Assembly: GCA_905478775.1 (NCBI GenBank)
Contig: CAJQKB010000162.1
Span: forward strand, 1 to 34,830
Direction: 5' to 3'
Source: an uncultured Opitutales bacterium
GTDB taxonomy: Bacteria; Verrucomicrobiota; Verrucomicrobiia; Opitutales; Seribacteraceae
Length of the DNA: 34,830 nt
A program made the translations under genes and the position numbers. Shown here in pieces: positions 11,550 through 32,742 of this stretch. The stretch's first letter is position 1, and each line of letters opens with the position of its first letter. The notes beneath the pieces are model-generated. The model did no database searches. It saw only the letters and a list, made by a program, of their open reading frames with translations, and was not told where the DNA came from.

Positions 11550-11551
11550 CT

Positions 11552-12241: not shown

Positions 12242-12264
12242 AAATTGATACGTTTAAATTGATT

Positions 12265-13530: not shown

Positions 13531-13539
13531 GGCTCAACC

Positions 13540-14058: not shown

Positions 14059-14092
14059 AACAATCCTTTTTTCATCTGTTTTAAATATAGTT

Positions 14093-14524
14093 TCACGACT
14101 GAACATTTATTTTTTCGAGAACTACTTCCGGAATCATAATCGGGGCCATTGACCCCGATGCTTGGTCGAAACTAACACATGCAGCCACGACTTCTCCGAC
14201 TGCAGCTTTTACCCGTTTTCCGCTTTCATCCTTCCAAAATTGAAAGGCGTAGGAAATTGATTTATCCCGAATTTCGGTAATGATTAATTTCACCTCCACT
14301 TCCTCCTCAAAACGAAGAGGTCTTTTAAATCGGCAGGATGTTTTGACTCGAGGCCAACCAAAGCGTCCATTCTCATCTTCCATGTCCACGGATAATCCCA
14401 CGCTGCGAAGGAATTCATGTTCGCAAATTTCCATCCAGCGATAAAAATTGGTAAAGTGCATGATGCCGGCCAGGTCAGTCTCGCTAAATTCAACGCGTCG
14501 GGTGATAGAAAATTCAATTGCCAT
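14093..14524 (-). CDS. Hotdog-fold acyl-CoA thioesterase (4-hydroxybenzoyl-CoA thioesterase/YbgC-like)
   Basis: A 143-residue hotdog protein. VEFSETDLAGIMHFTNFYRWME matches the active-site segment of the 4HBT/YbgC/FadM group (classically DxDAxGxVxxxNY), with Asp17 in the catalytic position and a His at 23. The next helix (CEHEFLRSVG) and SCRFKRPLRFEEEV, where the family has its xFxxPLxxGDxx strand, also fit. These enzymes hydrolyse acyl- or aroyl-CoA thioesters. Members include 4-hydroxybenzoyl-CoA and 1,4-dihydroxy-2-naphthoyl-CoA thioesterases. Placed among two adenylate-forming ligases and a chorismate lyase-like gene, it may release an aromatic acid from CoA or edit the pathway. The ATG at 14524 follows the glycosyltransferase stop by ten bases. 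Confidence 0.85.
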   Translation of the reverse strand: MAIEFSITRRVEFSETDLAGIMHFTNFYRWMEICEHEFLRSVGLSVDMEDENGRFGWPRVKTSCRFKRPLRFEEEVEVKLIITEIRDKSISYAFQFWKDESGKRVKAAVGEVVAACVSFDQASGSMAPIMIPEVVLEKINVQS

Positions 14525-14534
14525 GTTCTCAGTA

Positions 14535-15830
14535 TTAGGAAGTCGCTATTGCAGGGGCGAGAATATTATCGACCAAAGATTTTGCCAGTTTTTCGTTGGA
14601 ATACTTTTCCATGACAACATCACGACCGAAAATTCCCATTTTTTTTGAAACTTCTGAATCTTTTAATATTTGATCGAGTGCAATGGCGAGGTCACTGGGA
14701 TTATTTTCCTCATAAATAATTCCCCCACCCGTATCCTCCACAATTTCCGGAAATGCCCCACTTTTTGGAAGCACAACCGGAGTACCTGCCGCCAGCGCTT
14801 CGATTACATAAAGCCCAAACGCTTCGGGGTAGCGCGAAGGAACGGAAAACACATTGAGCCCCCTTAATAATTTGAGTTTCTCATCGCGTTCAATATTGGG
14901 TCGAAAAGTACTGCATGCAGAAAGACCGGCATTCTCGAGTTTGTCCTTTTGTTCCTGAACAAAAGGCTCATCTTCCCCTGTCATTCCACCTGCGATTTCT
15001 AACCGCAAGTCAGTATGCTTACTAGACTTTTTTAAAATAAGAAATGCGTCGATTAAAATATCCAATCCTTTCAACGGACAAAGACGGGCAAGAAATCCAA
15101 CCGTTGGGGGGGAAACCACATTTTCATTACAAGAAAATCCATCTGTGGTAATCCCATTTGGATGATGCAGGACATTTGCCGGTTCCAACTCCAACCGGGT
15201 CGCCATAAATTCGCCAAAATATCGGCTTGGTGAAATACAACCATTCAATTCCCTGACATCGTTTCTAAGAAGTTTCCAGGCTTGGTTTCTGTACTCTGGA
15301 AGCAGAGAATCGAGAAAGGAATCTTCACCCTGTAAAAATCCAAAAACGGGAATGTTTAGTTCCCTACGTAGAACCTTACCAATCCCGGCAAGCATGATCG
15401 TGGAGAGAAGAATAACATCTGGTTTTCCGTGAGCGTGAAACCAGTCCACCACCTTGCGTACTTCTTTAACAAGAGGCCCATCCTCTCCCCGAAAAGTAGA
15501 GAGCGTAATTTCACCCAAATCTTTACTGGATGTCATACCGCTTTTCGCTGCGGCTTTCTTTAGCAGCCACTTACTGTCAAGTGCCTTGTCCATCCAGGCG
15601 GGGGTATGGCGAAAGAGAGAGAACTTGTGTTGTAAGTAGACATTAATTCCACCAAAGAAAATAGGTAACTCATCGGCGGCAGGTTCTTCATCCAAAAAAT
15701 GAGGCAGGTAAGTGGGAAGCATGGTAACCTCATGCCCAGCATCAATCAAGCAACGGGCGAGGGAATTATCACGCATGCAAACACCGCAGTAGTAATTCCC
15801 CGTTCCCGGGGTAAGGAAAGCAAGCTTCAC
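14535..15830 (-). CDS. GT4-family glycosyltransferase
   Basis: A 431-residue GT-B glycosyltransferase. The N-terminus (KLAFLTPGTGNYYCGVCMRDN) is the first Rossmann strand and the glycine-rich acceptor loop. The second domain contains VGFLARLCPLKGLDILIDAF and the nucleotide-sugar E-x7-E motif EAFGLYVIE followed by ALAAGTPVVLPKSGAFPEIV, diagnostic of glycosyltransferase family 4 (glycosyl transferases group 1). The donor and acceptor cannot be told from sequence. It starts at GTG 15830, overlapping the flavoprotein stop by four bases (GTGA), so it is translationally coupled to the halogenase-like enzyme. That makes it a candidate for glycosylating the product of this pathway, possibly an aromatic hydroxyl. 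No signal peptide, so cytoplasmic. Confidence 0.88.
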   Translation of the reverse strand: MKLAFLTPGTGNYYCGVCMRDNSLARCLIDAGHEVTMLPTYLPHFLDEEPAADELPIFFGGINVYLQHKFSLFRHTPAWMDKALDSKWLLKKAAAKSGMTSSKDLGEITLSTFRGEDGPLVKEVRKVVDWFHAHGKPDVILLSTIMLAGIGKVLRRELNIPVFGFLQGEDSFLDSLLPEYRNQAWKLLRNDVRELNGCISPSRYFGEFMATRLELEPANVLHHPNGITTDGFSCNENVVSPPTVGFLARLCPLKGLDILIDAFLILKKSSKHTDLRLEIAGGMTGEDEPFVQEQKDKLENAGLSACSTFRPNIERDEKLKLLRGLNVFSVPSRYPEAFGLYVIEALAAGTPVVLPKSGAFPEIVEDTGGGIIYEENNPSDLAIALDQILKDSEVSKKMGIFGRDVVMEKYSNEKLAKSLVDNILAPAIATS

Positions 15831-17092
15831 GAGGAAGCAGTCGTCAAACCATGCTCCACTGGCTCGGGAAGGTCGGCAAGGTCAGACATGGCATCAAAGA
15901 GTTCTCGGAATTCATTATCGTCCACATTGCCAATCAAACAATCGGTAAGTGCGGCCCGTAAATGATCCCCTCTTTTGGCAAGGTCTCCAAAACTAAAATC
16001 CTGATCGTAGAATGCATAGACAATTTTTCTCATCGTCTCGATGGAGGATTGCATTCGTTTTCCGTATCGATCAAAACTTTTGGCAGAAAGATCGCCGGCA
16101 TCCAAAGCCAGATCAATTTCATCGGCAAGCATGACACCGCTTTTCAAGGCCAGGAAAACGCCTGAAGAAAAAACTGGATCTAAAAATCCTAGTGCATCAC
16201 CAGCTAATACAAGGCCCTCACTTGCACAGTAACGATTACGGTAAGAGTATTCTCCGGTAATACGATATTCCCCGGTTTGTTCGGCTTCGGCCAAATGTTC
16301 CTTAATCCATTCATTATTCAATACTTCACGCTGAAAAATTTCCTCGTGATCCTTGGTCGATCCATTAAAAAGATAATCCCGCTCCGCCACAATCCCGACG
16401 CTGACCATATCACCGCTCAATGGAATATACCAAAACCATCCCTTGTTGGGCAGGTAAGCAACCGTGGTTGCGCCTTCATCCAACCCGGGGTCGCGCTTAG
16501 CACCCTTATAATATGTCCACAGTGCAATCTTTTTAAGCTCCGGGTCACGAATCTTCCATTTTTGTTTATGTGCAGCAAAGCAATCCCGGCCCGAAGCATC
16601 TACTACAATTGGTGCCCGTAATTCTAATGATCCAAACTCTTCGGACTCGACTGTAATACCTTCCACTCGATCGCCCGATTTAATCAAATTCTTGGCTTTC
16701 GTTTCCTCCATGACTGTAGCACCATTTGATCGTGCTTTGTCGAGAATCATTTTATCGAATTCAGAACGCCAAACCTGCCAAGTGGTAGAGGATGGATGGT
16801 CGAAATGCTGGAAAAAATAAAAGGGCTGCGAAAGAAAGCCGTCTTGTCGAACAAATTGGACACAGTATTTTCGGGGATTTGCAGACTCCATCAAGGTATC
16901 AATCAAGCCCAGTCTTTCCAGCGGAAAATAACAAAATGGCATTAATGATTCTCCCACATGGTATCGGGGGAATTTTTCTTTTTCCACGATCAATACATCG
17001 CGACCTTTTTCTGCAAGCAGTGCACCGGTTGTGGAACCAGCAGGTCCAGCTCCCACAACGATTGCATCATAATTTTTTTTTAGGGATATCAT
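15827..17092 (-). CDS. Halogenase-like FAD-dependent oxidoreductase
   Basis: A 421-residue flavoprotein. The dinucleotide-binding motif VVGAGPAGSTTGALLAEKG is at 12-30, and EKEKFPRYHVGESLMP at 38-52 is the loop shared by flavin-dependent halogenases and geranylgeranyl-reductase-like enzymes. GWFWYIPL at 218-225 contains the WxWxIP motif regarded as the signature of flavin-dependent halogenases. GDALGFLDPVFSSGVFLALKSG at 299-320 is the second FAD motif. Lys75 (NPRKYCVQF) sits where these proteins have a conserved lysine, but I cannot confirm that it is the catalytic halogenase lysine. Relatives include true phenol/pyrrole halogenases (CmlS/PltA-like) and non-halogenating members in xanthomonadin and aryl polyene clusters. 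It may halogenate or oxidise an aromatic substrate. It needs a flavin reductase, which is not seen here. Overlaps the glycosyltransferase start. Confidence 0.82.
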   Translation of the reverse strand: MISLKKNYDAIVVGAGPAGSTTGALLAEKGRDVLIVEKEKFPRYHVGESLMPFCYFPLERLGLIDTLMESANPRKYCVQFVRQDGFLSQPFYFFQHFDHPSSTTWQVWRSEFDKMILDKARSNGATVMEETKAKNLIKSGDRVEGITVESEEFGSLELRAPIVVDASGRDCFAAHKQKWKIRDPELKKIALWTYYKGAKRDPGLDEGATTVAYLPNKGWFWYIPLSGDMVSVGIVAERDYLFNGSTKDHEEIFQREVLNNEWIKEHLAEAEQTGEYRITGEYSYRNRYCASEGLVLAGDALGFLDPVFSSGVFLALKSGVMLADEIDLALDAGDLSAKSFDRYGKRMQSSIETMRKIVYAFYDQDFSFGDLAKRGDHLRAALTDCLIGNVDDNEFRELFDAMSDLADLPEPVEHGLTTASS

Positions 17093-17143
17093 GATAGTAT
17101 TAATTCAAGTCAGGTTTTCTGTTTTTACAAATATAGAAAGTAA

Positions 17144-17695
17144 TCAAAGAGAGGGTAATATTTCTACAATGCGAGCTATTATATCGCCATTGTAAGAAGT
17201 AATTTCATTACTTCTACCATATAAATAATCCGCTTCCACAGAGCCAAATGCGTCGACAATTGCATTGTCGGGAACTATTTTTAGGAACGCCCGAGGCGCA
17301 CTGGAGTAGGGAATGCGGGCTTCATTTAGAATCGCCCCCAAGGGTCGTTGAGCCTCGATTACTGCTGTTCTCAGTTCTTCCTCCAAGTTCTGCAGGGTAA
17401 TTTCAATTGCACCATATTCTGTCGCTTTCTGAGCGTTTTCCGCGTGCAGTACAACTTCTCGAAAATAAGCTTTTCCATCACTGGAAGAACTTAACTTTCG
17501 GACCTTAATTTCATCCTCATGAAATGCTTCCAACCGGGATGTCATGTCTCCCTCATGTACTAATAAAGAATAATAGGGATCTGGTATTTCCTGGGGGTCC
17601 ACTTCCTCAAAAGATAATTTCGGAATCCCGCGAGCCCGACGAATAAAGCTCAAGGGATAAAGAAGGTCAGGAGAAAAATTTGATAAATTTGCCAT
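17144..17695 (-). CDS. Chorismate lyase-like protein (UbiC/DUF98 fold)
   Basis: A 183-residue cytoplasmic protein that I read as a chorismate pyruvate-lyase (4-hydroxybenzoate synthase) relative. LLVHEGDMTSRLEAF at 44-58 lines up with the LLLEDSMTKRFE region of UbiC. YFREVVLH at 77-84 carries an arginine (Arg79) where UbiC has its active-site Arg. RPLGAILNE at 117-125 matches the PLGxxL loop. The C-terminus DIIARIVEILP places Glu178 where UbiC has its C-terminal catalytic glutamate. EYGAIEI at 93-99 is typical of the DUF98 branch, which includes the mycobacterial enzyme Rv2949c. The reaction would be chorismate to 4-hydroxybenzoate plus pyruvate. It lies between a HemN-like radical SAM gene (ten bases upstream) and the halogenase-like flavoprotein (52 bases downstream). 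The family call is from motif order, not a search. Confidence 0.68.
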   Translation of the reverse strand: MANLSNFSPDLLYPLSFIRRARGIPKLSFEEVDPQEIPDPYYSLLVHEGDMTSRLEAFHEDEIKVRKLSSSSDGKAYFREVVLHAENAQKATEYGAIEITLQNLEEELRTAVIEAQRPLGAILNEARIPYSSAPRAFLKIVPDNAIVDAFGSVEADYLYGRSNEITSYNGDIIARIVEILPSL

Positions 17696-17704
17696 TACAA
17701 TCGC

Positions 17705-19042
17705 TTACACATACCGAGCATCTTGATGGTGAGGTAAGAAAAACTGATGGAGTAAAGAATCTACTCGTAAAAGTGCATCGCGTATAAGAACAAGATAGTC
17801 TCCTTCTTCTATCAGGTCACCATTTTCTTTCCACTTCGTAATAATTAATGAAAATCGCTCGGTTACAGATATACCAAACTTTTTTTGAAAATATTTTTTG
17901 TCCACCCGGCCCAATTTCCATTGCAGAATAAGTTCCCTGATAAAACGTTCTTCTTCCTGAGTCATTAGTGCCCGTCGAACGGGAGCTTTTTTAGCTTCCA
18001 CGGAGTCGCAATAATGATCGATATTGGTAATATTTTGATAATGAATACCACCCAAATGTCCAAAAGAAGATACCCCCAGGCCAACCATATCAGCACCCGA
18101 CCATAATCGATCACGGTAAATAAATTTTGTAGTTTCTGGATTTTTAACTGCGGTGTAAGCACTGGTTATCGTATAACCTGCTTTTTCCAATTTTTCATAC
18201 GCTTCTGCAACCCAGCGACGCTTAGTTGGCCAGTCTGCTACAGGAGCACTTAACTTGCCCTCCTCCTTCATATTTTTAAAAATCCCGGTATTAAATGGTA
18301 CTTCCATTTGATAAATGGTGACACAGTCCGGAGATAAATCTACCACCTGATCCACACAATCAGACCAATTTTCATCAGTCTCTTCGAGCATGCCTGCAAT
18401 CAAATCGATGTTAATATTATCAAAACCAAGTCCCCGAGCGAATTCATAAGCTCGAAAAACTTCTTTCGAGCGATGGGCCCGTCCATTAATTCCTAAGATA
18501 TGATCATTAAAATTCTCGACCCCTAAACTTAATCGGGTCACTCCAAATTCTTTGATTACACTAAGCTTCTTCTCCGAAAGCGTTCCCGGTTCGCACTCAA
18601 AGGTGACTTCCTCAGCTTCATCCCATGGCAAGATTGCCTTCATTTGATCGGTTAATTCGGTAAGTTGCTGGGCCGATAAATAGGATGGTGTACCACCACC
18701 AAAATAAACAAATTTAGGCTTACGCCCCTGCAAGTAAGGTGACTCAGAATACGTCCTCAATTCCTCAATCGTGGCCGAGAGGTAGCGGCGAACATCATTC
18801 GAGTTTTTATCTGTATATACTTTAAAATAGCAAAAATGACAGCGCTTTCGACAGAAGGGAACATGATAATAAATTCCCAATGGTGCAGTTCCCTGGGAGG
18901 GACTATTAATCATGCTGTTTACGCAGGGAACATCCTCATCATTCCAAAAAGAAAAAGGAGGGTAATTTGAAACAAAATAATTCCCTGCCTTTGTTTCATC
19001 TTCAGTCTGATAGTCAGGTTTAATAAAAGTTGAATCGCTCAT
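17705..19042 (-). CDS. HemN/HemW-like radical SAM enzyme
   Basis: A 445-residue protein. IYYHVPFCRKRCHFCYF at 57-73 contains the radical SAM cysteines Cys64, Cys68 and Cys71 (CxxxCxxC) in the HIPFC context of the coproporphyrinogen III oxidase-like family. FGGGTPSYLS at 114-123 is the SAM-binding GGGTP motif. The stretch around 170-250 (RLSLGVENFNDHILGINGRAH, INIDLIAGMLEETDENW) is the HemN-type barrel, and the C-terminus has the HemN C-terminal helical domain. It is not clearly HemN itself. Relatives include HemW (haem chaperone), HutW/ChuW and the class C radical SAM methyltransferases and cyclopropanases of natural product pathways. Being next to a chorismate lyase-like gene and a halogenase-like flavoprotein favours a tailoring role over haem metabolism. 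The ATG at 19042 overlaps the stop of the upstream gene (ATGA). Confidence 0.85.
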   Translation of the reverse strand: MSDSTFIKPDYQTEDETKAGNYFVSNYPPFSFWNDEDVPCVNSMINSPSQGTAPLGIYYHVPFCRKRCHFCYFKVYTDKNSNDVRRYLSATIEELRTYSESPYLQGRKPKFVYFGGGTPSYLSAQQLTELTDQMKAILPWDEAEEVTFECEPGTLSEKKLSVIKEFGVTRLSLGVENFNDHILGINGRAHRSKEVFRAYEFARGLGFDNINIDLIAGMLEETDENWSDCVDQVVDLSPDCVTIYQMEVPFNTGIFKNMKEEGKLSAPVADWPTKRRWVAEAYEKLEKAGYTITSAYTAVKNPETTKFIYRDRLWSGADMVGLGVSSFGHLGGIHYQNITNIDHYCDSVEAKKAPVRRALMTQEEERFIRELILQWKLGRVDKKYFQKKFGISVTERFSLIITKWKENGDLIEEGDYLVLIRDALLRVDSLLHQFFLPHHQDARYV

Positions 19043-20184
19043 TTGATTAATTTTACTTTAAAGGCATACACATTTCCATCTTCACAGCTTACTAGAATTC
19101 TTTCATTTACTACCGCTGGAGTTGATGAAATTGGCTCTCCCACTTCATAAGATGAAATTTCTTTTCCGTCTTTCATTGAAAGAAGATATAGTTTTCCATC
19201 CATTGAGCCAAATACTACTTTATCGCCCGAAACAACTGGCGAACTATCAATTCGGCCCCGTGCCGAGAAGCGCCAATCCTGCTTTCCCGAAATTCGGTTA
19301 ATGCAATGAAGTCCTTTATCCCGTCCACCAATTATAACTTGGGTTTTAGTTACCGCAGGGGATGAAAAGTAGGGGAAACTTTTCTGCCGATAATTCCATA
19401 CGATGTCTCCCGTTTTCAGGTCAAAAGCCATGACCGCTCTGTCCATATTTCCCACATAACCAATTCCGTCGGAAACCGAGACTGAAGCCGCAATAGGGGC
19501 CTCCACTTCTACGGACCGAACTAATTTCCCATCCTCTAGCCCTATCACATAAAGCACGGAATCACATCCCCCGATAACCACATATTTGCCCTCCGAAATA
19601 GTCGGTACTCCATTTACATAGTTTTGCGTTTCAAATGTCCAAACCACCTTACCTGTTTTAGCATTTACGCAATGAACAAAATTATCATAACTCCCAACCA
19701 CCAGAACAGAGTCCTTTGTAGTAGGGCGAATTCCCTGATTGGCCGCCCCCATAATTTCACCCCCCGTTTCATATTTCCAAATTAACTTCCCACTTTTAGC
19801 ATCAAGCGCATAAAGAAAGCCATCTGTTGACCCAGTGTAAACGACGCCCTCATGAACCAAGGGAGGAGCGTCAATCCCAAGACTCGTTTTGTATTTCCAC
19901 ACTTCCTTTCCATTATCTAAAGATAGCGCAAAAAGGGTACCCGTTTCGGCACCTATGAAAGCAAGGTTCCCAGAAACAACGACGGATGATTTAAGAAAAT
20001 CGCCTGTTTTAAACTCCCAATCAAGCTCAAGAGTTTTTCCGATTTTAGCTTGTGATATTCCTCTCAATTCAGCTCCACCCCGATGGCGGGGCCAATCAAT
20101 TCCAGCTTGTTTATTTTTTGCTATAATTGAACCACTTACAATGAACAAGAGAGCGTAAAAGAGTACTAGTATATTATTCCTCAT
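19039..20184 (-). CDS. Exported PQQ-like beta-propeller protein (BamB-like)
   Basis: A 381-residue protein starting, in my choice, at ATG 20184, which gives a compact signal peptide (MRNNILVLFYALLFIVSG). A TTG at 20193 overlapping the dehydrogenase stop is the alternative. The mature part is made of seven to eight tandem blades with the PQQ-like motif, for example LFALSLDNGKEVWKY, LYALDAKSGKLIWKYET, VHCVNAKTGKVVWTFET and VMAFDLKTGDIVWNY. The later blades vary. These are the repeats of the BamB/YfgL and quinoprotein dehydrogenase-like propeller. No dehydrogenase active-site elements or cytochrome domain are visible, so a scaffold or binding role is more likely than catalysis. It sits between the alcohol dehydrogenase and the radical SAM gene and is tightly coupled to both, so it probably serves the same pathway in the periplasm. 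Confidence 0.85.
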   Translation of the reverse strand: MRNNILVLFYALLFIVSGSIIAKNKQAGIDWPRHRGGAELRGISQAKIGKTLELDWEFKTGDFLKSSVVVSGNLAFIGAETGTLFALSLDNGKEVWKYKTSLGIDAPPLVHEGVVYTGSTDGFLYALDAKSGKLIWKYETGGEIMGAANQGIRPTTKDSVLVVGSYDNFVHCVNAKTGKVVWTFETQNYVNGVPTISEGKYVVIGGCDSVLYVIGLEDGKLVRSVEVEAPIAASVSVSDGIGYVGNMDRAVMAFDLKTGDIVWNYRQKSFPYFSSPAVTKTQVIIGGRDKGLHCINRISGKQDWRFSARGRIDSSPVVSGDKVVFGSMDGKLYLLSMKDGKEISSYEVGEPISSTPAVVNERILVSCEDGNVYAFKVKLIK

Positions 20185-20189
20185 TGGAA

Positions 20190-21422
20190 TCAATTTGCCT
20201 GAGCGACCTGATTTTCACAAAAAGCAGTCGGGAAAAGAAGAGAATAAAGATATTTGAAATCACTTGAATTAATGGATCGTGGATTAAAACTGGCAGTCCA
20301 TTGCTCTTGAGCGGCAGCGGCTAAAGAGTTTATCTCTGAAGGTACAAAACCATAATCCTCTAACGAGGATGAAATATTAGCTAACTTCAAGATTTCACAT
20401 ACCCGGGCAATGAGATTTCTTGTTGCCTCAGAATCTTGACTATTCGGCCCTGCCAGTCCCGACTTTTTGGCAACCTCCGCATAAATACTGTTAGTCTCCT
20501 CTTGTTCTGCATTAAATTTCATAACTTGAGGCAGCACCATACCCACCGCAATTCCATGGATCACTCCACGGCTTGCGGTTAATGGATTCGCCATTGAATG
20601 GGCAGCACCAAGCATACTTCTTTCAATTGCGGCACCCGCATGGGAAGCACCCAGCAATACCGCTCCCCTACTTTTTAAATCTTGAGGGTTTTCAAAAACT
20701 AATGGTAGGTTTTTCTGAATTAAATCAAAAGCAAGTTGAGCGTGTCGATTGGAACTGGGATTTCTTTTAGTTGTCACTAAAGATTCAAGCGAATGGGCCA
20801 GTGCATCAACTCCAGTACAGGCTGTAACCGAACTCGGTAAAGAAAGAGTTAATTCTGGATCCAGAATGGTAATTTTAGGAAGTGCTTTCTTATCCCCACA
20901 AGCCATTTTTTTATTAGTTTGATCCTCTGAAATTAAAGCAAACGACTGGCATTCGCTTCCAGTGCCCGCGGTAGTTGGAATTGCAATAAATGGGAGCATT
21001 GGTTGGCTGGCTTTGCCAATACCCCAGTAGTCTGACATCCTGCCTCCATTACTAAGAATGAAGTTACATCCTTTTGCAGTATCCATAGAACTTCCTCCTC
21101 CCAGTCCCACTATTAAGTCAACATGTGCTTCACTTGCTACCTGCACGCAACTTTGCACACTTGATTCAGTTGGATTCTCGATAGACTTGTCAAAAAGAGT
21201 AACATTCAAATTCGATTGTTCGAAAATCTCTTTTAGTTTTTGAGGGTGCCCCGCAGAAGATAAACCGGAGTCAGTAACAAGTAAGAGATTGCTTCCACAT
21301 TCCTTAGCTACTTCCCCCGCCTTATTAATTACCCCATTTCCATAAATAATTTTTTGAGTAGCCTTCTCGCCATCAATAAAAAAAGAATCTCCTTTTACAT
21401 CATCTGCGTGTGAATCTATCAT
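20190..21422 (-). CDS. Iron-containing (group III) alcohol dehydrogenase
   Basis: A 410-residue group III metal-dependent dehydrogenase, read from the ATG at 21422 (a TTG at 21428 is the other possible start). NAD(P)-binding GLGGGSSMDTAKG is at 107-118 and the conserved PTTAGTGSECQSFA at 149-162. Expected metal ligands are Asp206 and His210 (GVDALAHSLES), His275 (GAAHSMANP) and His289 (VIHGIAVGM). All four are present, so the enzyme should be active. Family members interconvert primary alcohols (or hydroxy acids) and aldehydes. In this operon it directly follows the LuxC-like acyl reductase and an acyl-activating enzyme, so it may complete acid to aldehyde to alcohol, or run the opposite direction. 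About 17 bases separate it from the upstream reductase gene. Substrate not identifiable. Confidence 0.9.
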   Translation of the reverse strand: MIDSHADDVKGDSFFIDGEKATQKIIYGNGVINKAGEVAKECGSNLLLVTDSGLSSAGHPQKLKEIFEQSNLNVTLFDKSIENPTESSVQSCVQVASEAHVDLIVGLGGGSSMDTAKGCNFILSNGGRMSDYWGIGKASQPMLPFIAIPTTAGTGSECQSFALISEDQTNKKMACGDKKALPKITILDPELTLSLPSSVTACTGVDALAHSLESLVTTKRNPSSNRHAQLAFDLIQKNLPLVFENPQDLKSRGAVLLGASHAGAAIERSMLGAAHSMANPLTASRGVIHGIAVGMVLPQVMKFNAEQEETNSIYAEVAKKSGLAGPNSQDSEATRNLIARVCEILKLANISSSLEDYGFVPSEINSLAAAAQEQWTASFNPRSINSSDFKYLYSLLFPTAFCENQVAQAN

Positions 21423-21439
21423 TGGCAATGGAAAGTCAA

Positions 21440-22873
21440 TTATGCTGCCATTCCGATTGATCTGCGCTTGTAGAGAAACTCAAACATATTTCCTTCGTGA
21501 GGCTGATCCCAAGATATTTTCATTGTGGAGATTGGGCCAAGGTTTAATCGTTCGATATTCGATGCAGAAAGTAATTGTCTCTTAAATGTTTCATCTTTTG
21601 TGATAGCAGAAACAACTAAGGTAGGCCCTATTGCATTGAGCATATCTGGTTGAGGAACTTCAACTACACTGGCATAGGGACATAGGAACTCGCGGTTAGA
21701 AAGCGGGTGATCCATCGATTCACAATAGACAATTGTGGGGCATAAATAGGTTCCACCCTCCGCTTGTAATAGACGGGGTCCGGTACGATAAATCGCGGTA
21801 GTGTCGATCGCCCCTTTCTGGCATAAATCAGCATCGATTGCACCATCTATCCATTCGCCCATTTTAGGATTTGCAAATCCAGAAAGTACCGCGTTCGGGT
21901 CATCGACAGGTAGCGGTTTTAGGGAACCCAACCTTTTACCAAGAGCGTCCGCAATTTCCTTTGCATATTTGGGAACAATGATAGCGGATGCATTTACGCA
22001 ACTTCTACCACCATTATCTGAAATAGAGGATGCCATAACATCAATAAAGTCAGGCCAATTTTCAATTTCGTCTTCCCCAATCAGTACTTTACTAAACCCC
22101 GGTCCATGTACTTGTACTCCGGGATTGCCCGCATATAAATCAGTGGTGCTTTTATCTCCAAAAATCAATGCTCGATTGCAAAGTCGAAGAATATCCGCCG
22201 CACCCTCATGGTCAGTGGGATAAAAACCAAAGGCTTCCCGTGGGCAACCTGCGGCAATAAATGACTGAATAAGCCTGAAAGGGGTCCATGGTTCATCCCG
22301 ACCCGGTTTCATAATAATGGGAATTTTTAGTGCAATTGAGGGCAACCATAGTGAGTTTACTGCCGGCGAATTACTTGGCATAACTAAGCCCAATGCATTG
22401 GTTGTGGGATAAAAACATACTGGAGATCCTGCCTGTTCTCCAAAACCTCGATCTAGAATCGAAGGATCAATCCCGCGGGTCAACCCATTCAAAATTAATT
22501 CCACATGGGTAAGAGCATAATGAATTTTATCCATATTTCTTTTTACCATCACATGGGGTAAACCACTGGTGGCTGAAAGCGTTTCCAGATAATCTTGCCC
22601 ACTTTGTGACCTTCCCCCTTCTCCCAGCGGAAGAGTTCCATTCAGAAATAACTCACCAGCCTTTGCACTAATATCAATTAATTCTCGGGTAGTAAACTTT
22701 TGCAGTGCCTCACGTGCTTGATCGATCTTTAATAGATCTCTTCGAATTACGCCGGCATTGACTTGGCTCATAGTAGCTTTTACCGCACCGTTACGGTAAT
22801 CTTTTACTTCTGATTCGTTAAAGCTACGATACTCTTTTCCAAGACGTAAGCACGGTATATGGGGTGTATTCAT
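21440..22873 (-). CDS. Acyl-CoA reductase/aldehyde dehydrogenase, LuxC-like
   Basis: A 477-residue ALDH-superfamily enzyme. GLVMPSNSPAVNSLW at 162-176 holds the family Asn (Asn168), with PIIMKPGRDEPWTPF as the nucleotide-binding Lys region. The nucleophile segment SISDNGGRSCVNASA at 283-297 carries Cys292. The divergence from ordinary aldehyde dehydrogenases, the length and the pairing with an adjacent LuxE/PaaK-like activating enzyme point to the acyl-CoA reductase (LuxC-like) branch, which reduces activated acids to aldehydes with NADPH. I see no signal peptide. It lies one base after the ligase gene stop and is followed by the iron alcohol dehydrogenase. The three genes look like a carboxylic acid reduction module made of separate proteins. 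Catabolic aldehyde oxidation is the alternative. Confidence 0.8.
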   Translation of the reverse strand: MNTPHIPCLRLGKEYRSFNESEVKDYRNGAVKATMSQVNAGVIRRDLLKIDQAREALQKFTTRELIDISAKAGELFLNGTLPLGEGGRSQSGQDYLETLSATSGLPHVMVKRNMDKIHYALTHVELILNGLTRGIDPSILDRGFGEQAGSPVCFYPTTNALGLVMPSNSPAVNSLWLPSIALKIPIIMKPGRDEPWTPFRLIQSFIAAGCPREAFGFYPTDHEGAADILRLCNRALIFGDKSTTDLYAGNPGVQVHGPGFSKVLIGEDEIENWPDFIDVMASSISDNGGRSCVNASAIIVPKYAKEIADALGKRLGSLKPLPVDDPNAVLSGFANPKMGEWIDGAIDADLCQKGAIDTTAIYRTGPRLLQAEGGTYLCPTIVYCESMDHPLSNREFLCPYASVVEVPQPDMLNAIGPTLVVSAITKDETFKRQLLSASNIERLNLGPISTMKISWDQPHEGNMFEFLYKRRSIGMAA

Positions 22874-22874
22874 A

Positions 22875-23951
22875 TTAATATACTCCTTCTACAATATTTT
22901 TTTCCATTGCACCGAAAGGGCGAACTTCTGCGACCCCGTCCCATGGAGCCTCGCTCCAAGGTTTTCGACGTAAAGCTTCATCACGCTCCAAAAATCGGGG
23001 CATAAAAAATTCTTTCGTTAAAGTTGTTAATTCGACCCGACCCCAAGAATCGTAGTCGACAGTATTATTTGTATCGGGGTTAATAACACGAAGAACGGCC
23101 CTTGGCTGTGGAGCATAGTACGCGATTGAGTAGTCATTTTCTGCACCAAATGGATGGTGCCTGGCAAGACCCATTAAGGTATTTCCATAAGTGGGTACAA
23201 ATCCGATTTTTCCGCCTTCACATACTTCCTCGACTAAAAATCGGGCATATTGCTTGTCCATGGTAGTACCTCCACAAAAAACGCCCTTAATTCCTGCTTT
23301 TATCAAATCCTTTCTCTCCGCCAGGGCTTCAAGTAATTTCGGTGTGGTGAATAATGCACTTACTTTTCGATGCTTCAGAATTGTTAAGGCCTGATCCACG
23401 GCATGGTCCATGTAGGCCCGGGCCTGATCAAATTGCTTACTCGCAATCAATCTCTTCACCCATCGCGGGTCTAAATCAACAAAGTAACACGAACAACCTC
23501 GCTCATTGGCTAGGTGCTCTATCGAGAGTCGTAAGCGACGCGGCCCAGTAGGACCGACCATCATCCAATAATCATCACGCGGGAAATGCTCGTCTTTTAA
23601 TGTTTCGGAGAATGCAGTGTAATCAATACGAAAATCGTCCCAACCAATTCTTTGCTTGGGCATACCTGTAGTCCCACCTGTTTCAAATATATTAAAAGGT
23701 TTTCCCTTGTAAGGTTGGGGAACCCATACTTCATTGGGCAGATCCCTCAACCATTCATCTTCAAAATTAGGGAATTTCTGACAAATATCCTCAAAGTTCT
23801 TGATTTCATTCAAGGGATCCCAATTTTGCTCTTTCGCCCAATCAAGCCAAAAGGGAGATCCTGTATCTGGCGAAAAATGCCACTTGATCATTTCTACAAC
23901 ATGAGCATCAAGCTCGTCTGCCGCATGTTTAACTTTTTCATCTATACTCAT
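22875..23951 (-). CDS. LuxE/PaaK-like acyl-activating enzyme
   Basis: A 358-residue adenylate-forming protein, shorter than PaaK and close to LuxE in length (about 370). The phosphate-binding loop FETGGTTGMPKQRIGW lies at 89-104, and IGFVPTYGNTLMGL near 245 takes the place of the A5 motif. The lid after YDSWGRVELTTLTKEFFMPRF is truncated: there is no clear C-terminal hinge/domain with a Lys-containing motif. The last 100 residues have no cysteine, so the C-terminal acyl-accepting cysteine of bacterial LuxE is not conserved. The acyl group may therefore pass directly to CoA, to a carrier, or to Cys292 of the adjacent LuxC-like reductase. The tight spacing (one base) to that gene supports a pair. 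It is distinct from the 421-residue ligase later in the operon. Confidence 0.78.
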   Translation of the reverse strand: MSIDEKVKHAADELDAHVVEMIKWHFSPDTGSPFWLDWAKEQNWDPLNEIKNFEDICQKFPNFEDEWLRDLPNEVWVPQPYKGKPFNIFETGGTTGMPKQRIGWDDFRIDYTAFSETLKDEHFPRDDYWMMVGPTGPRRLRLSIEHLANERGCSCYFVDLDPRWVKRLIASKQFDQARAYMDHAVDQALTILKHRKVSALFTTPKLLEALAERKDLIKAGIKGVFCGGTTMDKQYARFLVEEVCEGGKIGFVPTYGNTLMGLARHHPFGAENDYSIAYYAPQPRAVLRVINPDTNNTVDYDSWGRVELTTLTKEFFMPRFLERDEALRRKPWSEAPWDGVAEVRPFGAMEKNIVEGVY

Positions 23952-23982
23952 AATGTTTCCATTAAAAAAGGATTTAATAAAT

Positions 23983-25692
23983 TTACAATTTTTTGGCCGA
24001 GGGGAAAAATTTTTGTAATGTTTCTTCCGTTGGTGGTTTTGTCAGCAGGGAAACAAGAACCATTGCGATTGCTGCCACGGCAAAACAAACTGCGGCTGGA
24101 ATAATACCTGGGCCAATCACCAATTCACCTCCGTACCCAGAAAGGTGAAAGAAATAAAGCCAAGAAATAAGAGCTGCAATGATACTGGCAAATGCACCTT
24201 CTTTTGTTGCCCGCTTCCAATATAAAGCTGCAAAAACGACCGGAAAAAGAGCTGAGAATCCGCTAAAACACCAAATCGCGAGATCGAAGACGTTGGCATT
24301 TTTTGCCCACATGGCGAGGACATAAGTCAGGGCAACAATGACCACAATAAATACACGGGCGATCAATATCACCTGTTTATCACTGTACTTATTTTTTCCC
24401 GCTCGGTGGATCACAATATCATTGGTAAATATGGTTCCAAGACAAAGAAATTGAGAATCCAATGACGACATGATTGCAGCCAAAACTCCTGCCGTTAAAA
24501 GCCCAGTTAGCACGGGATCTCCAACTAATAAATTAAGCATGGCGGATAACACTGCGGGAGGAGGAATACCGGGCGGAAGCACTCCCGATGCCCACACTCC
24601 GACTAACACGCATGGCACCCAAACCACCATAATACACAGAGGGTGAGCAATTACGGTTAAACGAAATGCTTTGGCACTTTTCGCAGTAAGCCAATGTTGA
24701 AAGAGGTGGGGAAACATTCCCACGCTTAGCGGTATAAAGAAGTAGGATAAAAAGGTAATGAAAGGAATTCCGAGCTCTCTTTCAAACGAAGAAATTACTC
24801 CTGTTTTTGGGTTCTTCTTTTTGAATTCCACCTGGATTGGGGTACGGGCTAAGTGAGGTTGCTTATTTGATAAATCAACAGTGGTTGAATCGGTAACCCG
24901 TCCAATCGGTTTTGGTTTTTCATTCTTTACCAACTCCTTTGTGGTTTTATCAAATTGATAATCTTGTACAATTATTCCCTTCTCGGTTATTCGTGCCGGC
25001 ACCTTACCCGCCTGCTCCATTCCCCCTAATCCATTAATGATATATACAAAAGCGACTACTCCCATCACCATGAAAACTATTGTCTGAAATGTATTCGCAT
25101 ACGCGGCCCCTCTGGACCCCCCCATAAAGACATAAGTCAGAACGACAAGGGAAACAACTAAGCCGGTTAGCCAGGGAGGTATCCCCCCCAGCCATTGGGG
25201 AGCGGTAGGGTTGGTAAAAATTTCTGTAAATGCACCCGCGGTAACCGGCTCGATCGTCTTACCGGCTCCAATTATTCCTATCAAAAGATAAGGAACAACG
25301 AGCAATACAAGAATTGGAAAAAGTAAATAGCCCAACCCATCTGATTCAAACCGTGCCCGAAAAAATTGGATTTGAGTAATATATCCATACTTTTTCCCAA
25401 AAGCCCACAATCGAATCCCAATAAGAAAAAATATACCAGCATGTACAAGACCACTGATCGAAGCCATTAAACCATAAGTTCCGATCCCTCTTTCAAAAGA
25501 TTTTCCAGTCGAGCCAACTAATGCAAAGGCGGTCATAGTTGTACCAAAAACACTCATTAACAGTAAAAAAGGCCCAATACTATGGCTTGCAACGAAGTAG
25601 TCTTTGCTCGTACCCCTAAATAAACGACTGCTAAAAAAACCTAGTCCAAGTAGTAAGCACAGGTAAAGAATGATTACAATTAGGGTAGTCAT
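23983..25692 (-). CDS. Sodium:solute symporter (SSS family)
   Basis: A 569-residue member of the LeuT-fold SSS family with about 13 helices. The first segment MTTLIVIILYLCLLLGLGFF, followed by SKDYFVASHSIGP and FGTTMTAFALVGSTGKSFE, matches the start of SSS transporters with the typical gating helix. SSLDSQFLCLGTIFTNDIVIH in the middle is the helix 8 region that usually carries Na+-site residues. A hydrophilic insertion of about 85 residues (roughly 234-318, PARITEKGIIVQDYQFDKTT to SSFERELGIPF) breaks the usual layout between two helices. It is probably a cytoplasmic or periplasmic extra domain. The gene overlaps the stop of the DUF3311-like gene by one base (TAATG), a pairing common in these phyla. 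Likely imports an organic anion for the pathway; the substrate is unknown. Confidence 0.9.
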   Translation of the reverse strand: MTTLIVIILYLCLLLGLGFFSSRLFRGTSKDYFVASHSIGPFLLLMSVFGTTMTAFALVGSTGKSFERGIGTYGLMASISGLVHAGIFFLIGIRLWAFGKKYGYITQIQFFRARFESDGLGYLLFPILVLLVVPYLLIGIIGAGKTIEPVTAGAFTEIFTNPTAPQWLGGIPPWLTGLVVSLVVLTYVFMGGSRGAAYANTFQTIVFMVMGVVAFVYIINGLGGMEQAGKVPARITEKGIIVQDYQFDKTTKELVKNEKPKPIGRVTDSTTVDLSNKQPHLARTPIQVEFKKKNPKTGVISSFERELGIPFITFLSYFFIPLSVGMFPHLFQHWLTAKSAKAFRLTVIAHPLCIMVVWVPCVLVGVWASGVLPPGIPPPAVLSAMLNLLVGDPVLTGLLTAGVLAAIMSSLDSQFLCLGTIFTNDIVIHRAGKNKYSDKQVILIARVFIVVIVALTYVLAMWAKNANVFDLAIWCFSGFSALFPVVFAALYWKRATKEGAFASIIAALISWLYFFHLSGYGGELVIGPGIIPAAVCFAVAAIAMVLVSLLTKPPTEETLQKFFPSAKKL

Positions 25693-25925
25693 TATATGGC
25701 ATTCTCCTCGTCGTTATTTTCTTCGGCAAATCGTTCCAAATCGTGCGGCCATGCATACTTAATTGCTGCCCAACCTAAAATTGCACACACGATTGAAAAA
25801 CCGGCATGGAAAGCTAATCCTATTGGTAAGAAATCAAAAACAAGAAAGGCATCATCCCACCACCAAAAATCTTGGTGCACAATGAAAAGAAGTAGGAAAA
25901 GGAACCAAATAACTCTTTTTTTCAT
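25692..25925 (-). CDS. DUF3311-like small membrane protein, symporter partner
   Basis: A short protein of about 77 residues with two hydrophobic segments (KKRVIWFLFLLLFIVHQDFW and DFLPIGLAFHAGFSIVCAILGW) and an acidic tail (WPHDLERFAEENNDEENAI). The FLPIGLAFHAGFSIVCAI..WP pattern is what I know from DUF3311-like proteins that accompany SSS symporters. I chose ATG 25925; a GTG at 25946, two bases after the stop of the propeller gene, would add seven residues. The end overlaps the start of the symporter gene by one base, so coupling is strong. Probably a small subunit that stabilises or assists the symporter. This is by analogy; no catalysis expected. Confidence 0.75.
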   Translation of the reverse strand: MKKRVIWFLFLLLFIVHQDFWWWDDAFLVFDFLPIGLAFHAGFSIVCAILGWAAIKYAWPHDLERFAEENNDEENAI

Positions 25926-25948
25926 TAGGCTGGATAAAGAATTCACCT

Positions 25949-27475
25949 CTATTTTCCGATTGCGTATAGATGTGTTTGCGTACCGATATAAAGAACGCCG
26001 TTTGCAACGACAGGGGAACTATAAACAGGAGCACCCATGTTTATTGTCTTCACTTTCGGTTTCGATTTTCCATGATCCATTACCAATAAATCGCCATCCT
26101 CATTTCCTAAAATAAGTTTTCCATCGGCAATGAGAGTGGAACCCCAAATCCGGCTAAATGAATCGTGGGTCCAGTATACTTTTCCAGTGTTTGCATCTAC
26201 ACAATGGATTAGCCCGGCATATTCTGCGATGTAGACCAAATCATCGGCAATAGATACCGTGGATATGGTTCGACCCACATCTGTGTATTTCCAGACTATT
26301 TTGCCCGTCTTTGCATCGATACAGGAGAGTCTCCCGACCCCATCTCCATGCTCTGGATCCTGACCGATCGCACAATACACTTTTCCTTCATACAAAACTG
26401 GCGTCCCAATTAATTCACTTGGTCCAGGAGGAGTGGCATAAGGAATTTTCTTTCCGTCCGAATCTTTGCGGTAATTGGGTTCATTACAATCAACCTTCCA
26501 GATGGGTTGAAACAAATCATACCCATCGGCATCTTTCTCTGTTTTGTTATTATAACCATAACAAAATCCATCCGTTCCGCCCCATATCAAAATTTCAGCC
26601 CCATCGACATTACCATAGGTTAATGAAGACCAAGCCGCATGTAGTGCATTTTCGCTTGCTCCGGAACCATCTTCCCCAATTAATTCACCCGTGGTCTTGT
26701 TGAGGGCAATCCAACTCGGTGAAAGAGGGCTGGGTATGTTCGTATGTGACCAATCCACCCCGTTAGAAGTCGCAACATATACTGTATCACCAATAATTAC
26801 CGGAGAAGAACTCGTTACATTGTGTGGAAAAACTCCCAATTCGTCCCGCATGTCATACATCCAAAGAATATCAGCATCTAATTTTTCATTCAGAGCATCT
26901 GACATCCCCTTTGGTTTGATATAGGATGCCTCGTCTTTAAAGGGACCGTCATTTCCATTAGTTAAACCATGAATGTCCAAACAGACTACCTCACAGCGAT
27001 TTGTAACAACATAAACTTTATCGCCGTCTATTGCGGTAGAGGAACAAATGCCAATATACTCCCAATCACTCACCTTTCCTGCACCGAGCTTGGGTATAAC
27101 TAATTGCCACTTTAATTCGCCCGATTTTTCATCCAAGCACATCACTACTCCTCGGTCTCCTTTTTTTCCTGGATCGCGGGGCGACTCATTATTGGTTCCG
27201 ACAAATACACAACCGTTTCCAATGGTTACATTTCCATATGCCTGAGATCCCAATTTCGCCACCCATCTAAGGTTTTTCGTGGTTTTCATATCCACCACTT
27301 CATCGTCACTCATTTCACCCGCCACGAAATCGAAAGTAATTTTCTTTTCATCGGAGACCATATTTCTACTTCCATCTTTTCCCCACATGGGCCAATCTGC
27401 GCCGAGCAAACTGGACATCGAAAAAAGGAATATAACGAGTGGGACTGTTGATTTATTGATCATGTGTAATTTCAT
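25949..27475 (-). CDS. Exported PQQ-like beta-propeller protein (quinoprotein-like)
   Basis: A 508-residue protein with a signal peptide (MINKSTVPLVIFLFSMSSLLGAD, residues about 5-27) and several PQQ-like blades, for example VVMCLDEKSGELKWQL, VVCLDIHGLTNGN, LSCIDAKTGKIVWKYTDVGR and IHCVDANTGKVYWTHD. ADWPMWGKDGSRNMVSDEK at the start of the mature part is the entry motif common to quinoprotein-like propellers of Planctomycetota and Verrucomicrobiota. It is not a complete PQQ dehydrogenase: no cytochrome domain, and I cannot identify the disulphide or catalytic Asp/Glu pair. The gene begins eleven bases after the first gene of the operon. It may carry or sense the same exported molecule. Role unknown. 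Confidence 0.85.
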   Translation of the reverse strand: MKLHMINKSTVPLVIFLFSMSSLLGADWPMWGKDGSRNMVSDEKKITFDFVAGEMSDDEVVDMKTTKNLRWVAKLGSQAYGNVTIGNGCVFVGTNNESPRDPGKKGDRGVVMCLDEKSGELKWQLVIPKLGAGKVSDWEYIGICSSTAIDGDKVYVVTNRCEVVCLDIHGLTNGNDGPFKDEASYIKPKGMSDALNEKLDADILWMYDMRDELGVFPHNVTSSSPVIIGDTVYVATSNGVDWSHTNIPSPLSPSWIALNKTTGELIGEDGSGASENALHAAWSSLTYGNVDGAEILIWGGTDGFCYGYNNKTEKDADGYDLFQPIWKVDCNEPNYRKDSDGKKIPYATPPGPSELIGTPVLYEGKVYCAIGQDPEHGDGVGRLSCIDAKTGKIVWKYTDVGRTISTVSIADDLVYIAEYAGLIHCVDANTGKVYWTHDSFSRIWGSTLIADGKLILGNEDGDLLVMDHGKSKPKVKTINMGAPVYSSPVVANGVLYIGTQTHLYAIGK

Positions 27476-27486: not shown

Positions 27487-29799
27487 TTAATTGTTATAGC
27501 GGATAGACAAATTATCGAAATATACCTTCTTCTTACTCTGAGGTGACATTGCATAAACACCTGGAGCACCTTGTAAGTGGGGAGTTTCATGTGCCACCTC
27601 GATAGTCCATTGGTCTGGTTCTTCGGCCGATTTTGGCCAGGCTTTAGCCCGAATCATGCCCGTTCCATCCTCGAGAATATCAACCCGGGTTTTTAGTGTA
27701 TACCAAATATTTGTCTTAAAAGAAAACGGGACGGAATGCCTAAATCGATCGTAGTTTGAAATAATTTCTAACTTTTGCCCATTTCCAATCAATGCAAATA
27801 TATAACGCTGATTAATTAACCCAATATTTGATTTTATACGACGATCCCCATCTGTCATAACATCGGCTTCAGCAGTATAATTATTCATATCCTTATGCCC
27901 AACAAAATTAATAGCCCGTTGAAATAAAATTCGATCCAAAGTATTACCGGCCACTAAATTTCCTGATAGCTCCTGTACCTGCCATCTCATTCTTGCTCCA
28001 AGCCAGGCAAGGGGAGCATAAGAAAATGGGATTTGGTCCGAACTTTTCTGGGTTAATGAAAATCCTTCCTCAAAATTTTCTTCATAGGGTAAGTCCTGTA
28101 GGATCCGGCCTCGAGTAACCCCGTGCAAGTCACCCTTACTTACCCGAATAGCACCTGCAGAAAGCGTGGCATCCTTTTCGGCTACCAAGATTCCGTTAGG
28201 CCTTATTTCTGCATCTACTTTAGATTGAACTTTTGCAGTTGGCGGTATCCATTTTGCCCAACTTAAGCCCTCTTTGATTTCAGCAATTCTTTGGCCATTC
28301 TCATTCAAAGAAAAAACCTTAAAGGCGAGTGAATCTCCTGACTTAAGCGCAAACTCTGCAGGAATTACTTGCAAGGAAACGGCTTTTTGACTGCTGAGTT
28401 CTTTTTCTGATTGATGGGATATAAATGCAGGAGCGACTTTATTAGAACCAAAGCAATAAAGTCTTTTTTTGGATTGAACAAATACTCGCCCGTGCGCCAC
28501 TGCCGGACCCGCTAAACACGAACCATCAAGTTGTACCTGGCTTAATATAACGCCTTCCTGACCCGTATCCTTCACTACTGAAACTTGACCGTCAAACATG
28601 GGAACAAAAAGTTTTCCATCCGCCCAAACGGGGGAGGCATGAACCTGATCGGGTGCCAATTTTAAAGTCCAGATTTCTTCTCCTGTACCAGCATCTAAAC
28701 AAATGAGTTCGCCGCGTTTAATCGTAGAATAGACTCGATCATCTTTATAAACTGGAGTGCTCGTAAATGCTTCCATTGAATTATTCCTCCAAACCTCATC
28801 CTCTTTTCCAAGAATTAGAATTTCTTCATTTAACAAGGGAAGTTTTTTGGGTTTTTGAATCGCGACCATTCTGCCAATGGTGGAAGAATCAATATTTTCC
28901 TTACCGTGAACCGCAATCACAGAGTTTTCGTGAATCACTACTCCGGAATTGACTCCTCCGTACGACATCTGAAATCGCCACAAAGGCTGTCCAGTACGTG
29001 CATCGATGCAAACCACATGTCCGCAACCCGTTCCACTGTAAAAGACTCTTCTTCCACTTGGCAAATCTTCAAATGTTAAAGGCGAAAAAGAACTGTCTTT
29101 CGGGGTAATTCCAGGAGTCGATGACCAAACTAAATCTCCAGTATTTTTATCAAATGCATAAAATCGATCCCGCGCAGGTCCTTGTTTGCCCCAATTAGCG
29201 GTAATTGCGTGAATGATCACTAAATCTCCATCCACGCAAGGCCCACCTGTCCGCCCATTAGGAAATGTTAGTCGGGCAAACTCCTCCATTAATGAACGCT
29301 CCCATAGCATATTTCCATCCGAGTCATATCCAATTAATAATCCCGGACTAGTTTGGAAGTAAACATTTCCAGTAGCAGGATCGACCGAAGCGGCTCCTAC
29401 GCCATATCTATTATAAACAATATCACTTATGAAATCACTATGAGTACGCTCCCAAAGAATTTCACCGGATGCCGCATCAAAGCAAACCAAGGCCTCCTTC
29501 AACTCCTCTTCTACCCCATAATAACCGAATTGGTATGCCCTACCCCCAGCAATTACGGGTACTCCACCGCCTTGTATTTCGTGGCTCCACAAAAGAGATT
29601 CATCATCTAAACTAAGAATATCAGGCAAATTGGTCTGCTTAGAGACTCCGCTTCCGTCCGGCCCACGCCAAAAAAGCCAATCCTGGTCCATGGTGAGTGT
29701 TTTGACCTCTTCCTTAGAAACCCTCTTGGAACTGCTAACCGGAGAACAACTGGAAAGAAAAGTAAAGATCAAGCAAGTGGTAAATATTTGATAAATCAT
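27487..29799 (-). CDS. Lipoprotein with PQQ-like propeller and C-terminal LamG-like domain, first gene of the operon
   Basis: A 770-residue protein. The N-terminus MIYQIFTTCLIFTFLSSCSP has the lipobox LSSC, predicting lipid anchoring at Cys18. The central 450 residues are PQQ-like propeller blades (LVCFDAASGEILWER, FYAFDKNTGDLVWSST, VVCIDARTGQPLWRF, LICLDAGTGEEIWTLKL). A beta-rich linker near 480-560 is followed by a C-terminal jelly-roll-like domain with WPKSAEEPDQW and a final VYFDNLSIRY strand. That domain is shared with the last gene of the operon (7468-8175). The start at 29799 lies about 34-39 bases downstream of a promoter with a MarR-type palindrome. Probably displayed at the outer membrane or periplasmic face. 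No catalytic signature was seen. Confidence 0.85.
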   Translation of the reverse strand: MIYQIFTTCLIFTFLSSCSPVSSSKRVSKEEVKTLTMDQDWLFWRGPDGSGVSKQTNLPDILSLDDESLLWSHEIQGGGVPVIAGGRAYQFGYYGVEEELKEALVCFDAASGEILWERTHSDFISDIVYNRYGVGAASVDPATGNVYFQTSPGLLIGYDSDGNMLWERSLMEEFARLTFPNGRTGGPCVDGDLVIIHAITANWGKQGPARDRFYAFDKNTGDLVWSSTPGITPKDSSFSPLTFEDLPSGRRVFYSGTGCGHVVCIDARTGQPLWRFQMSYGGVNSGVVIHENSVIAVHGKENIDSSTIGRMVAIQKPKKLPLLNEEILILGKEDEVWRNNSMEAFTSTPVYKDDRVYSTIKRGELICLDAGTGEEIWTLKLAPDQVHASPVWADGKLFVPMFDGQVSVVKDTGQEGVILSQVQLDGSCLAGPAVAHGRVFVQSKKRLYCFGSNKVAPAFISHQSEKELSSQKAVSLQVIPAEFALKSGDSLAFKVFSLNENGQRIAEIKEGLSWAKWIPPTAKVQSKVDAEIRPNGILVAEKDATLSAGAIRVSKGDLHGVTRGRILQDLPYEENFEEGFSLTQKSSDQIPFSYAPLAWLGARMRWQVQELSGNLVAGNTLDRILFQRAINFVGHKDMNNYTAEADVMTDGDRRIKSNIGLINQRYIFALIGNGQKLEIISNYDRFRHSVPFSFKTNIWYTLKTRVDILEDGTGMIRAKAWPKSAEEPDQWTIEVAHETPHLQGAPGVYAMSPQSKKKVYFDNLSIRYNN

Positions 29800-29832
29800 T
29801 GGATAATTCAGATTAATGTGGATTTATTTTAA

Positions 29833-29861
29833 ATTAGTACTTGTATGTACTATATTGTCAA
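29833..29861 (-). promoter_or_regulatory. Candidate sigma-70-type promoter of the long operon
   Basis: On the minus strand TTGACA (29861-29856) is a perfect -35 box. With 17 bases of spacing, ACTAAT (29838-29833) fits -10 at 4 of 6 positions. It lies 34 bases ahead of the first gene's ATG at 29799. The palindrome at 29835-29852 occupies the spacer and reaches into the -10, so a bound repressor would block polymerase. Confidence 0.5.
29835..29852. promoter_or_regulatory. 18-base palindrome, candidate MarR operator
   Basis: TAGTAC (29835-29840), spacer TTGTAT, GTACTA (29847-29852): the arms are exact reverse complements. Size and symmetry suit a MarR dimer. It lies in the 99-base divergent region between the operon (start 29799) and the MarR gene (start 29899), so one site could control both. 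The 11 bases AGTACTTGTAT recur at 32749-32759 on the other strand. Confidence 0.6.
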
Positions 29862-29898
29862 ATACCGAAGGTCTAAAAACACTATTTTATAATTCAAG

Positions 29899-30366
29899 GT
29901 GAAACCGCTCATTCAAACACCCAAAAGATTACCTCCGCTACTTAGAGAGTGCTGGAATAAGTTAAACAGTACTTTTATGAAACGGGTAAAAACGGTAGGA
30001 CTTACCCCCGATCAATACATTGCCCTTCGTTGGCTTCATGAATTTCCTGCGGGGCAAATATCGCAGGTAAAACTTGCCGAGTTGATGTTTACTGACTCGA
30101 ATAACATTGCCGGCTTAATGAAGAGAATGGAGCAATTAAATTTAGTTCGAAGAAAAGCCAATGCAACGGACCACAGGAAAAAAAATATTTTTCAAACTAA
30201 ACTTGGGAGTTCCTTATTCCACAAAGGGAAAAAAATTGCGGAGAAATTGGAGTCGGAGGCTCTTTCTTGTCTTTCTTCCAATGAAAAAGAACATTTCCTT
30301 GAATTGCTTACTCGATTGTCGGAGCGAATCAATGAAGAAAGAAATCTACCGATCGATCATACATAA
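29899..30366 (+). CDS. MarR-family transcriptional regulator
   Basis: A 155-residue winged helix-turn-helix protein. LTPDQYIALRWLHEFPAGQISQVKLAELM forms helices 2-3 and the start of the HTH, DSNNIAGLMKRMEQLNLVRR is the recognition helix and following strand, and NATDHRKKNIFQTKLG is the basic wing with the DxRxxxxxLT-like motif of MarR. The C-terminal helices form the dimer domain. It begins at GTG 29899; a stop codon three codons upstream excludes a longer reading. Family members are usually repressors released by phenolic or aromatic carboxylates, which fits an operon with aromatic-acid genes. It is transcribed divergently from that operon and converges, with a one-base gap, on the next propeller gene. 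Autoregulation through the palindrome at 29835-29852 is likely. Confidence 0.9.
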   Translation: MKPLIQTPKRLPPLLRECWNKLNSTFMKRVKTVGLTPDQYIALRWLHEFPAGQISQVKLAELMFTDSNNIAGLMKRMEQLNLVRRKANATDHRKKNIFQTKLGSSLFHKGKKIAEKLESEALSCLSSNEKEHFLELLTRLSERINEERNLPIDHT

Positions 30367-32733: not shown

Positions 32734-32742
32734 AGGATAAAA

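Follow-up and report, generated by a model that had tools for sequence, protein, structure and literature searches.

The window, the whole stretch of 34,830 nucleotides analysed here, comes from an uncultured Opitutales bacterium and contains a 99-bp intergenic region in which a marR gene is read rightwards from a GTG at 29899 and an operon leftwards from an ATG at 29799 (Table 1). A palindrome made of TAGTAC (29835-29840), TTGTAT (29841-29846) and GTACTA (29847-29852) had been claimed for this region in a preliminary description and is found there by direct reading, separated by 35 nt from the ATG of the operon and by 46 nt from the GTG of marR. The TTGACA hexamer claimed together with it is present as well, since TGTCAA on the plus strand at 29856-29861 is a perfect minus-strand TTGACA directed towards the PQQ-propeller gene that heads the operon. 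The exact 6-6-6 pattern has a single occurrence in the 2.78-Mb genome.

Table 1. Positions in the window of the genes and of the observed or predicted regulatory features.
Feature	Position	Strand	Remarks
Predicted palindromic operator TAGTAC-TTGTAT-GTACTA	29835..29852	.	6-bp arms, 6-bp centre
Conserved 32-bp island (operator, -35 and -10) in unconserved intergenic DNA	29832..29863	.	Column information content, 30 orthologous loci
-35 hexamer TTGACA of the operon promoter	29856..29861	-	Read directly; kept alongside marR
Predicted -10 TACTAAT	29833..29839	-	Placed by position and conservation; overlaps one palindrome arm
marR, winged-helix MarR-family regulator, 155 aa, proposed repressor	29899..30366	+	Pfam MarR and MarR_2; start GTG somewhat uncertain
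First operon gene, PQQ-like beta-propeller, lipoprotein-like N terminus	27487..29799	-	PQQ_2
Second operon gene, PQQ-like beta-propeller	25949..27475	-	
Small conserved membrane-protein ORF, unlisted, in an apparent gap	25692..25949	-	Alignment of ten loci
Rest of the operon	8172..25692	-	

Beyond the small membrane-protein ORF, the operon encodes a Na+/solute symporter, an EhpF-like adenylating enzyme, an aldehyde dehydrogenase family protein, a Fe-alcohol dehydrogenase, a third propeller, a HemN-like radical SAM protein and a protein of unknown function, followed by a FADH2-halogenase-like flavoprotein, a glycosyltransferase, a 4HBT thioesterase, a small protein, a PaaK-like ligase, an ABC ATPase and an FtsX permease, and this gene order is kept in related genera and families. 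The small ORF has no Pfam match; its product, encoded upstream of the sodium/solute symporter, is similar to the small partner proteins of symporters of this type. The possibility that the apparent gap between 25692 and 25949 holds a second promoter was considered and rejected, since the gap is filled by this conserved ORF, and the operon therefore shows no apparent promoter gap at this point. At another locus (L083, genome G037; FAD_15827 orthologue 14518-15776) the match to the halogenase-like gene is split into two segments that overlap, which suggests that the frame is broken or the assembly wrong. On the far side of marR lies a unit (30368-33351, minus strand), convergent with marR and conserved in the genus, that consists of a propeller gene and of genes for a sigma factor and a possible membrane anti-sigma-like protein without a Pfam match.

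The adenylating enzyme (22875-23951, minus strand) matches solved EhpF with an E value of about 1e-42 and is encoded beside the aldehyde dehydrogenase and the Fe-alcohol dehydrogenase, an arrangement that looks like a module for the reduction of an acid to an alcohol and is conserved class-wide. In phenazine biosynthesis the substrate of EhpF is an aromatic acid and, on that basis, one may reasonably guess by analogy that the operon takes an aryl or acyl acid through an acid-to-aldehyde-to-alcohol step.

The marR product matches both MarR domains, PF12802 at 40.3 bits (cut-off 27) and PF01047 at 38.7 bits (cut-off 24.6). None of the cut-offs of the NCBIfam equivalogs is reached, the best score being that of the Saro_0803 family (46.2 vs 200), with SlyA at 43.4 vs 120 and HpaR at 35.1 vs 121.2, and the protein is filed under none of these families, nor under HosA. 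A predicted model of the monomer, made with five sequences (pLDDT 73.9, pTM 0.63), has its helices and strands in the order of MarR proteins and is matched by Foldseek to structures of MepR, MexR, MarR, HosA, SlyA and HpaR; residues D91 and R93 of the wing are invariant in a 16-member alignment. The model, the Foldseek matches and the alignment support a winged-helix topology having dimerisation helices at both ends and a D-x-R wing. In the nearest relative (L003, genome G008, 85% identical) GTA stands where the window has GTG 29899, with a TTG two codons upstream, and the true start of marR may therefore differ. The home genome also holds a second MarR-like gene of 31% identity. The upstream regions of such second genes mostly have no similar site, the exception being L076 (G028:C1, around 58487), a second MarR gene, paralogous to the first, which adjoins a diverged paralogue of the propeller gene and has a comparable site, AAATACCTGTACGTACTT.

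With its two-fold symmetry, its length within the range of about 14-22 bp and its position in the regulator's own intergenic region, the 6-6-6 palindrome has the form of an operator. The six central bases (YTGTAY across the genus) are conserved, yet not fully symmetric. A simple two-fold operator has no need of such a centre, and its conservation would mean either that the protein reads it asymmetrically or via DNA shape, or that these bases also serve the promoter. Taken by itself, the window sequence does not place the palindrome beyond chance: among dinucleotide shuffles of the 99-bp region, 48% contain a perfect palindrome with 6-bp arms and any spacer of 0-10, 7.6% contain one with a spacer of exactly 6, and TTGACA occurs on either strand in 7.9%. 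The single sequence is thus weak evidence, since shuffles often give such palindromes; once conservation is counted, the predicted operator is far beyond chance.

Orthologues of the MarR protein occur within the genus, in two further genera of its family and in a second family belonging to the same order, the relatives including marine Opitutales and Opitutia metagenome-assembled genomes and one uncultured Verrucomicrobia genome. The divergent neighbour of marR is the same propeller gene in 30/30 orthologous loci and, in every one of these, the intergenic region contains the palindrome and then TTGTCAA. Column by column, the positions flanking 29832-29863 are near background in this set. When 134 genomes were searched, the site was found with at most one mismatch in 24, once per genome and always beside marR, while the reversed control pattern gave single matches in seven genomes only. 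A regulon beyond this site is not supported in the home genome, where arms with up to 2 mismatches gave 44 sites vs 128 for the reversed control (no excess) and the full motif with up to 3 mismatches gave five sites vs twelve for the control.

The preliminary description had also placed the palindrome in the promoter spacer and in part of the -10, and the predicted -10 and one arm do share bases. As for a sigma-70-type promoter, a perfect and conserved -35 is accompanied by a weak -10, either ACTAAT at 17 bp from the -35 (4/6) or TACTAA at 16 bp (3/6), which is conserved in register and kept without marR. The predicted promoter is absent from the list given by a generic promoter scan. Among the loci with or without marR, most have one of the variants TACTAAT, TACCAAT, TAGCAAT, TACCTAT and TACTGAT at the -10, and where indels occur in marR-bearing loci the distance from -35 to -10 is still 16-18 bp.

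Loci that have the operon without marR offer a comparison between the operator and the promoter that it overlaps. Such loci were seen in 8 genomes from a sister genus and, within the genus of the window itself, in one (G001); immediately upstream of the operon they have the neighbouring propeller gene (30368). A marR remnant was looked for in G001 and none was found. On the tree of the first operon protein, the presence of marR must have changed at least twice, separately, and loss of marR is the simpler reading because the second family has the gene. TTGAC, the first five bases of the -35, is kept in 9/9 of these loci, and a TAC[T/C]AAT-like -10 persists 16-17 bp from it; at L059, one of the loci without marR, the -10 is less clear and an insertion is possible. 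In the sister genus, the 16 bp between the boxes match the window at just 1-7 positions. In G001, 13/16 spacer bases match and the palindrome has 4 mismatches.

Comparison therefore strongly supports the claim of the preliminary description that the divergent operon has a MarR operator within its promoter: the predicted site accompanies marR at 30/30 loci and is lost or decayed at 9/9 without it, through at least two losses, with the promoter hexamers kept. Because the palindrome goes with marR and the promoter stays, two physically overlapping elements have been separated by evolution, and the two natural losses of the regulator resolve operator and promoter to the base, which is seldom available without experiments. 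On this comparison, the predicted operator is a real element, tied to marR and distinct from the promoter around it.

The association was followed further with a profile of the MarR orthologues, which found relatives in 67/384 genomes of the class. The region upstream of marR was searched for the core TAC[C/T]T[A/G][T/C][A/G][C/T]GTA, the outer arm bases being ignored. This core, TAC[C/T]T....GTA in short, is present in 31/45 loci in which the propeller gene (the first gene of the operon) is divergent from marR vs 0/15 loci in which it is not, with 0.05 matches expected by chance and p = 1.5e-6 for the contrast (Fisher test, shared ancestry ignored). The core count is not blind, since the core was defined after some of those loci had been viewed, and the contrast between the two groups of loci is the stronger part of what the comparison suggests. 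In the remaining 14/45 loci with a divergent propeller gene, the core as written is missing. The outer arm bases differ between lineages, and the third base tends to complement its partner (19/31 distinct cases vs a shuffled mean of 10.3, p about 0.001; with one case per family, median p 0.03). Full dyads among the variants include TACTAC/GTAGTA, TATTAC/GTAATA, TGCTAC/GTAGCA and TCGTAC/GTACGA. The proposed recognition helix, SDPNTIASLLERME (TDSNNIAGLMKRME in the window), is nearly invariant, its assignment coming from predicted secondary structure and general knowledge of MarR proteins, and this constancy matches the invariant core of the predicted operator.

The palindrome is very probably the operator of the adjacent MarR, a dimer of which, placed in the promoter spacer, would repress the operon, and probably marR as well, until released by a ligand. 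As proposed, a MarR homodimer would bind 29835-29852, between the -35 and the -10 of the leftward operon promoter, and when bound would keep RNA polymerase off the operon and probably off the marR promoter on the opposite strand; a small ligand, made or used by enzymes of the operon, would free MarR from the DNA. The position of the site makes autoregulation of marR plausible, and even likely, because 46 nt separate the site from the marR start downstream and it shares bases with a possible -10, TATATT (29851-29856), which is only a candidate in a poorly defined marR promoter. What we thus infer is that MarR binds directly, represses instead of activating, regulates its own gene and is released by a ligand, the first two points being weighed below against other readings of the same site.

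An activating or dual role of MarR at this same operator is improbable. Certain activated promoters likewise have a weak -10, and activators are known among MarR relatives, but the spacer from -35 to -10 is taken up by the site, and a dimer bound there would stand in the way of polymerase. Moreover, the marR-less loci keep both boxes without visible repair towards consensus, as expected of a promoter working without MarR. A repressor operator remains the reading that is preferred here.

Very improbable, in turn, is a role of the conserved dyad as an RNA hairpin, either a leader element or an attenuator, rather than as a protein site. The isolated 22-nt element does fold at -6.1 kcal/mol (z -2.75), and the complementary arm changes fit base pairing too; in leader context, however, its stability is that of shuffles (z 0.05 and -0.76), and the element lies upstream of the expected start of the operon transcript, vanishes where marR is lost and has a conserved core that accompanies the nearly invariant recognition helix of MarR. 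We give the same slight credence to the binding of a different regulator, with marR as just a neighbour, since comparison cannot identify the protein directly and the genome has its second MarR-like gene, but loss of the site tracks loss of marR twice and a similar site is missing upstream of most second MarR-like genes, the L076 exception adjoining the propeller-gene paralogue.

The predicted MarR operator can be compared with known systems. Divergent promoters with the site inside are a common arrangement in the MarR family (PMC5487221), and HucR has one operator between the regulator and its divergent target gene, derepressed upon ligand binding (PMC5487221). The window, with its single predicted operator, shares this divergent layout with HucR among the switches of the HucR / PecS type, but differs from them in operator sequence, target genes and protein subgroup, and has no urate gene. 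For the SCO3205 type, the operator was predicted from conserved DNA upstream of orthologous marR genes and binding was shown later (PMC3737563). The method and logic used for the window operator are the same, whereas the consensus is TTnAAnnnTCAA there and TAC[C/T]T....GTA here, and the target genes are unrelated. MepR, MexR and SlyA share the fold of the predicted window model, at TM-scores of roughly 0.6-0.8, but are about 22-27% identical, and MepR and MexR control efflux pumps.

HosA of E. coli, besides being a Foldseek match, comes first by sequence when the MarR profile is compared with solved structures; it has a 14-bp site and responds to 4-hydroxybenzoate (PMC6261655). The likeness would be that of a MarR protein freed by its ligand from a short palindrome, which for the window protein is a proposal, while identity is about 27% and both operator and operon are others. 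The match may thus be taken as a lead, no more, to the ligand in the window. MarR regulators often bind phenolic compounds (PMC5487221), and the earlier remark that their ligands are often phenolic acids holds for the family generally and fits the enzymes of the operon. Our best guess for the ligand is an aryl or acyl acid, or an activated thioester thereof.

This kind of system is well known, its mechanism is textbook and its regulatory logic ordinary. Neither the regulator subfamily nor the operator or the operon seems to have been described, in that the literature collection searched yielded no paper on the operon or on a TAGTAC-type MarR operator. It is conceivable, with slightly less than even confidence, that an uncharacterised MarR subfamily with a near-invariant helix and a TAC[C/T]T....GTA operator forms an old dedicated switch across many families of one class, governing an undescribed operon for acid activation and reduction (EhpF-like ligase, aldehyde dehydrogenase, Fe-alcohol dehydrogenase, symporter, propellers), a substrate or intermediate of which would be the ligand. 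For uncultured marine Opitutales bacteria and their class-level relatives, the analysis provides a predicted operator, base-resolved and testable, for an uncharacterised operon, and what the operon metabolises would probably become apparent from the ligand of this MarR.
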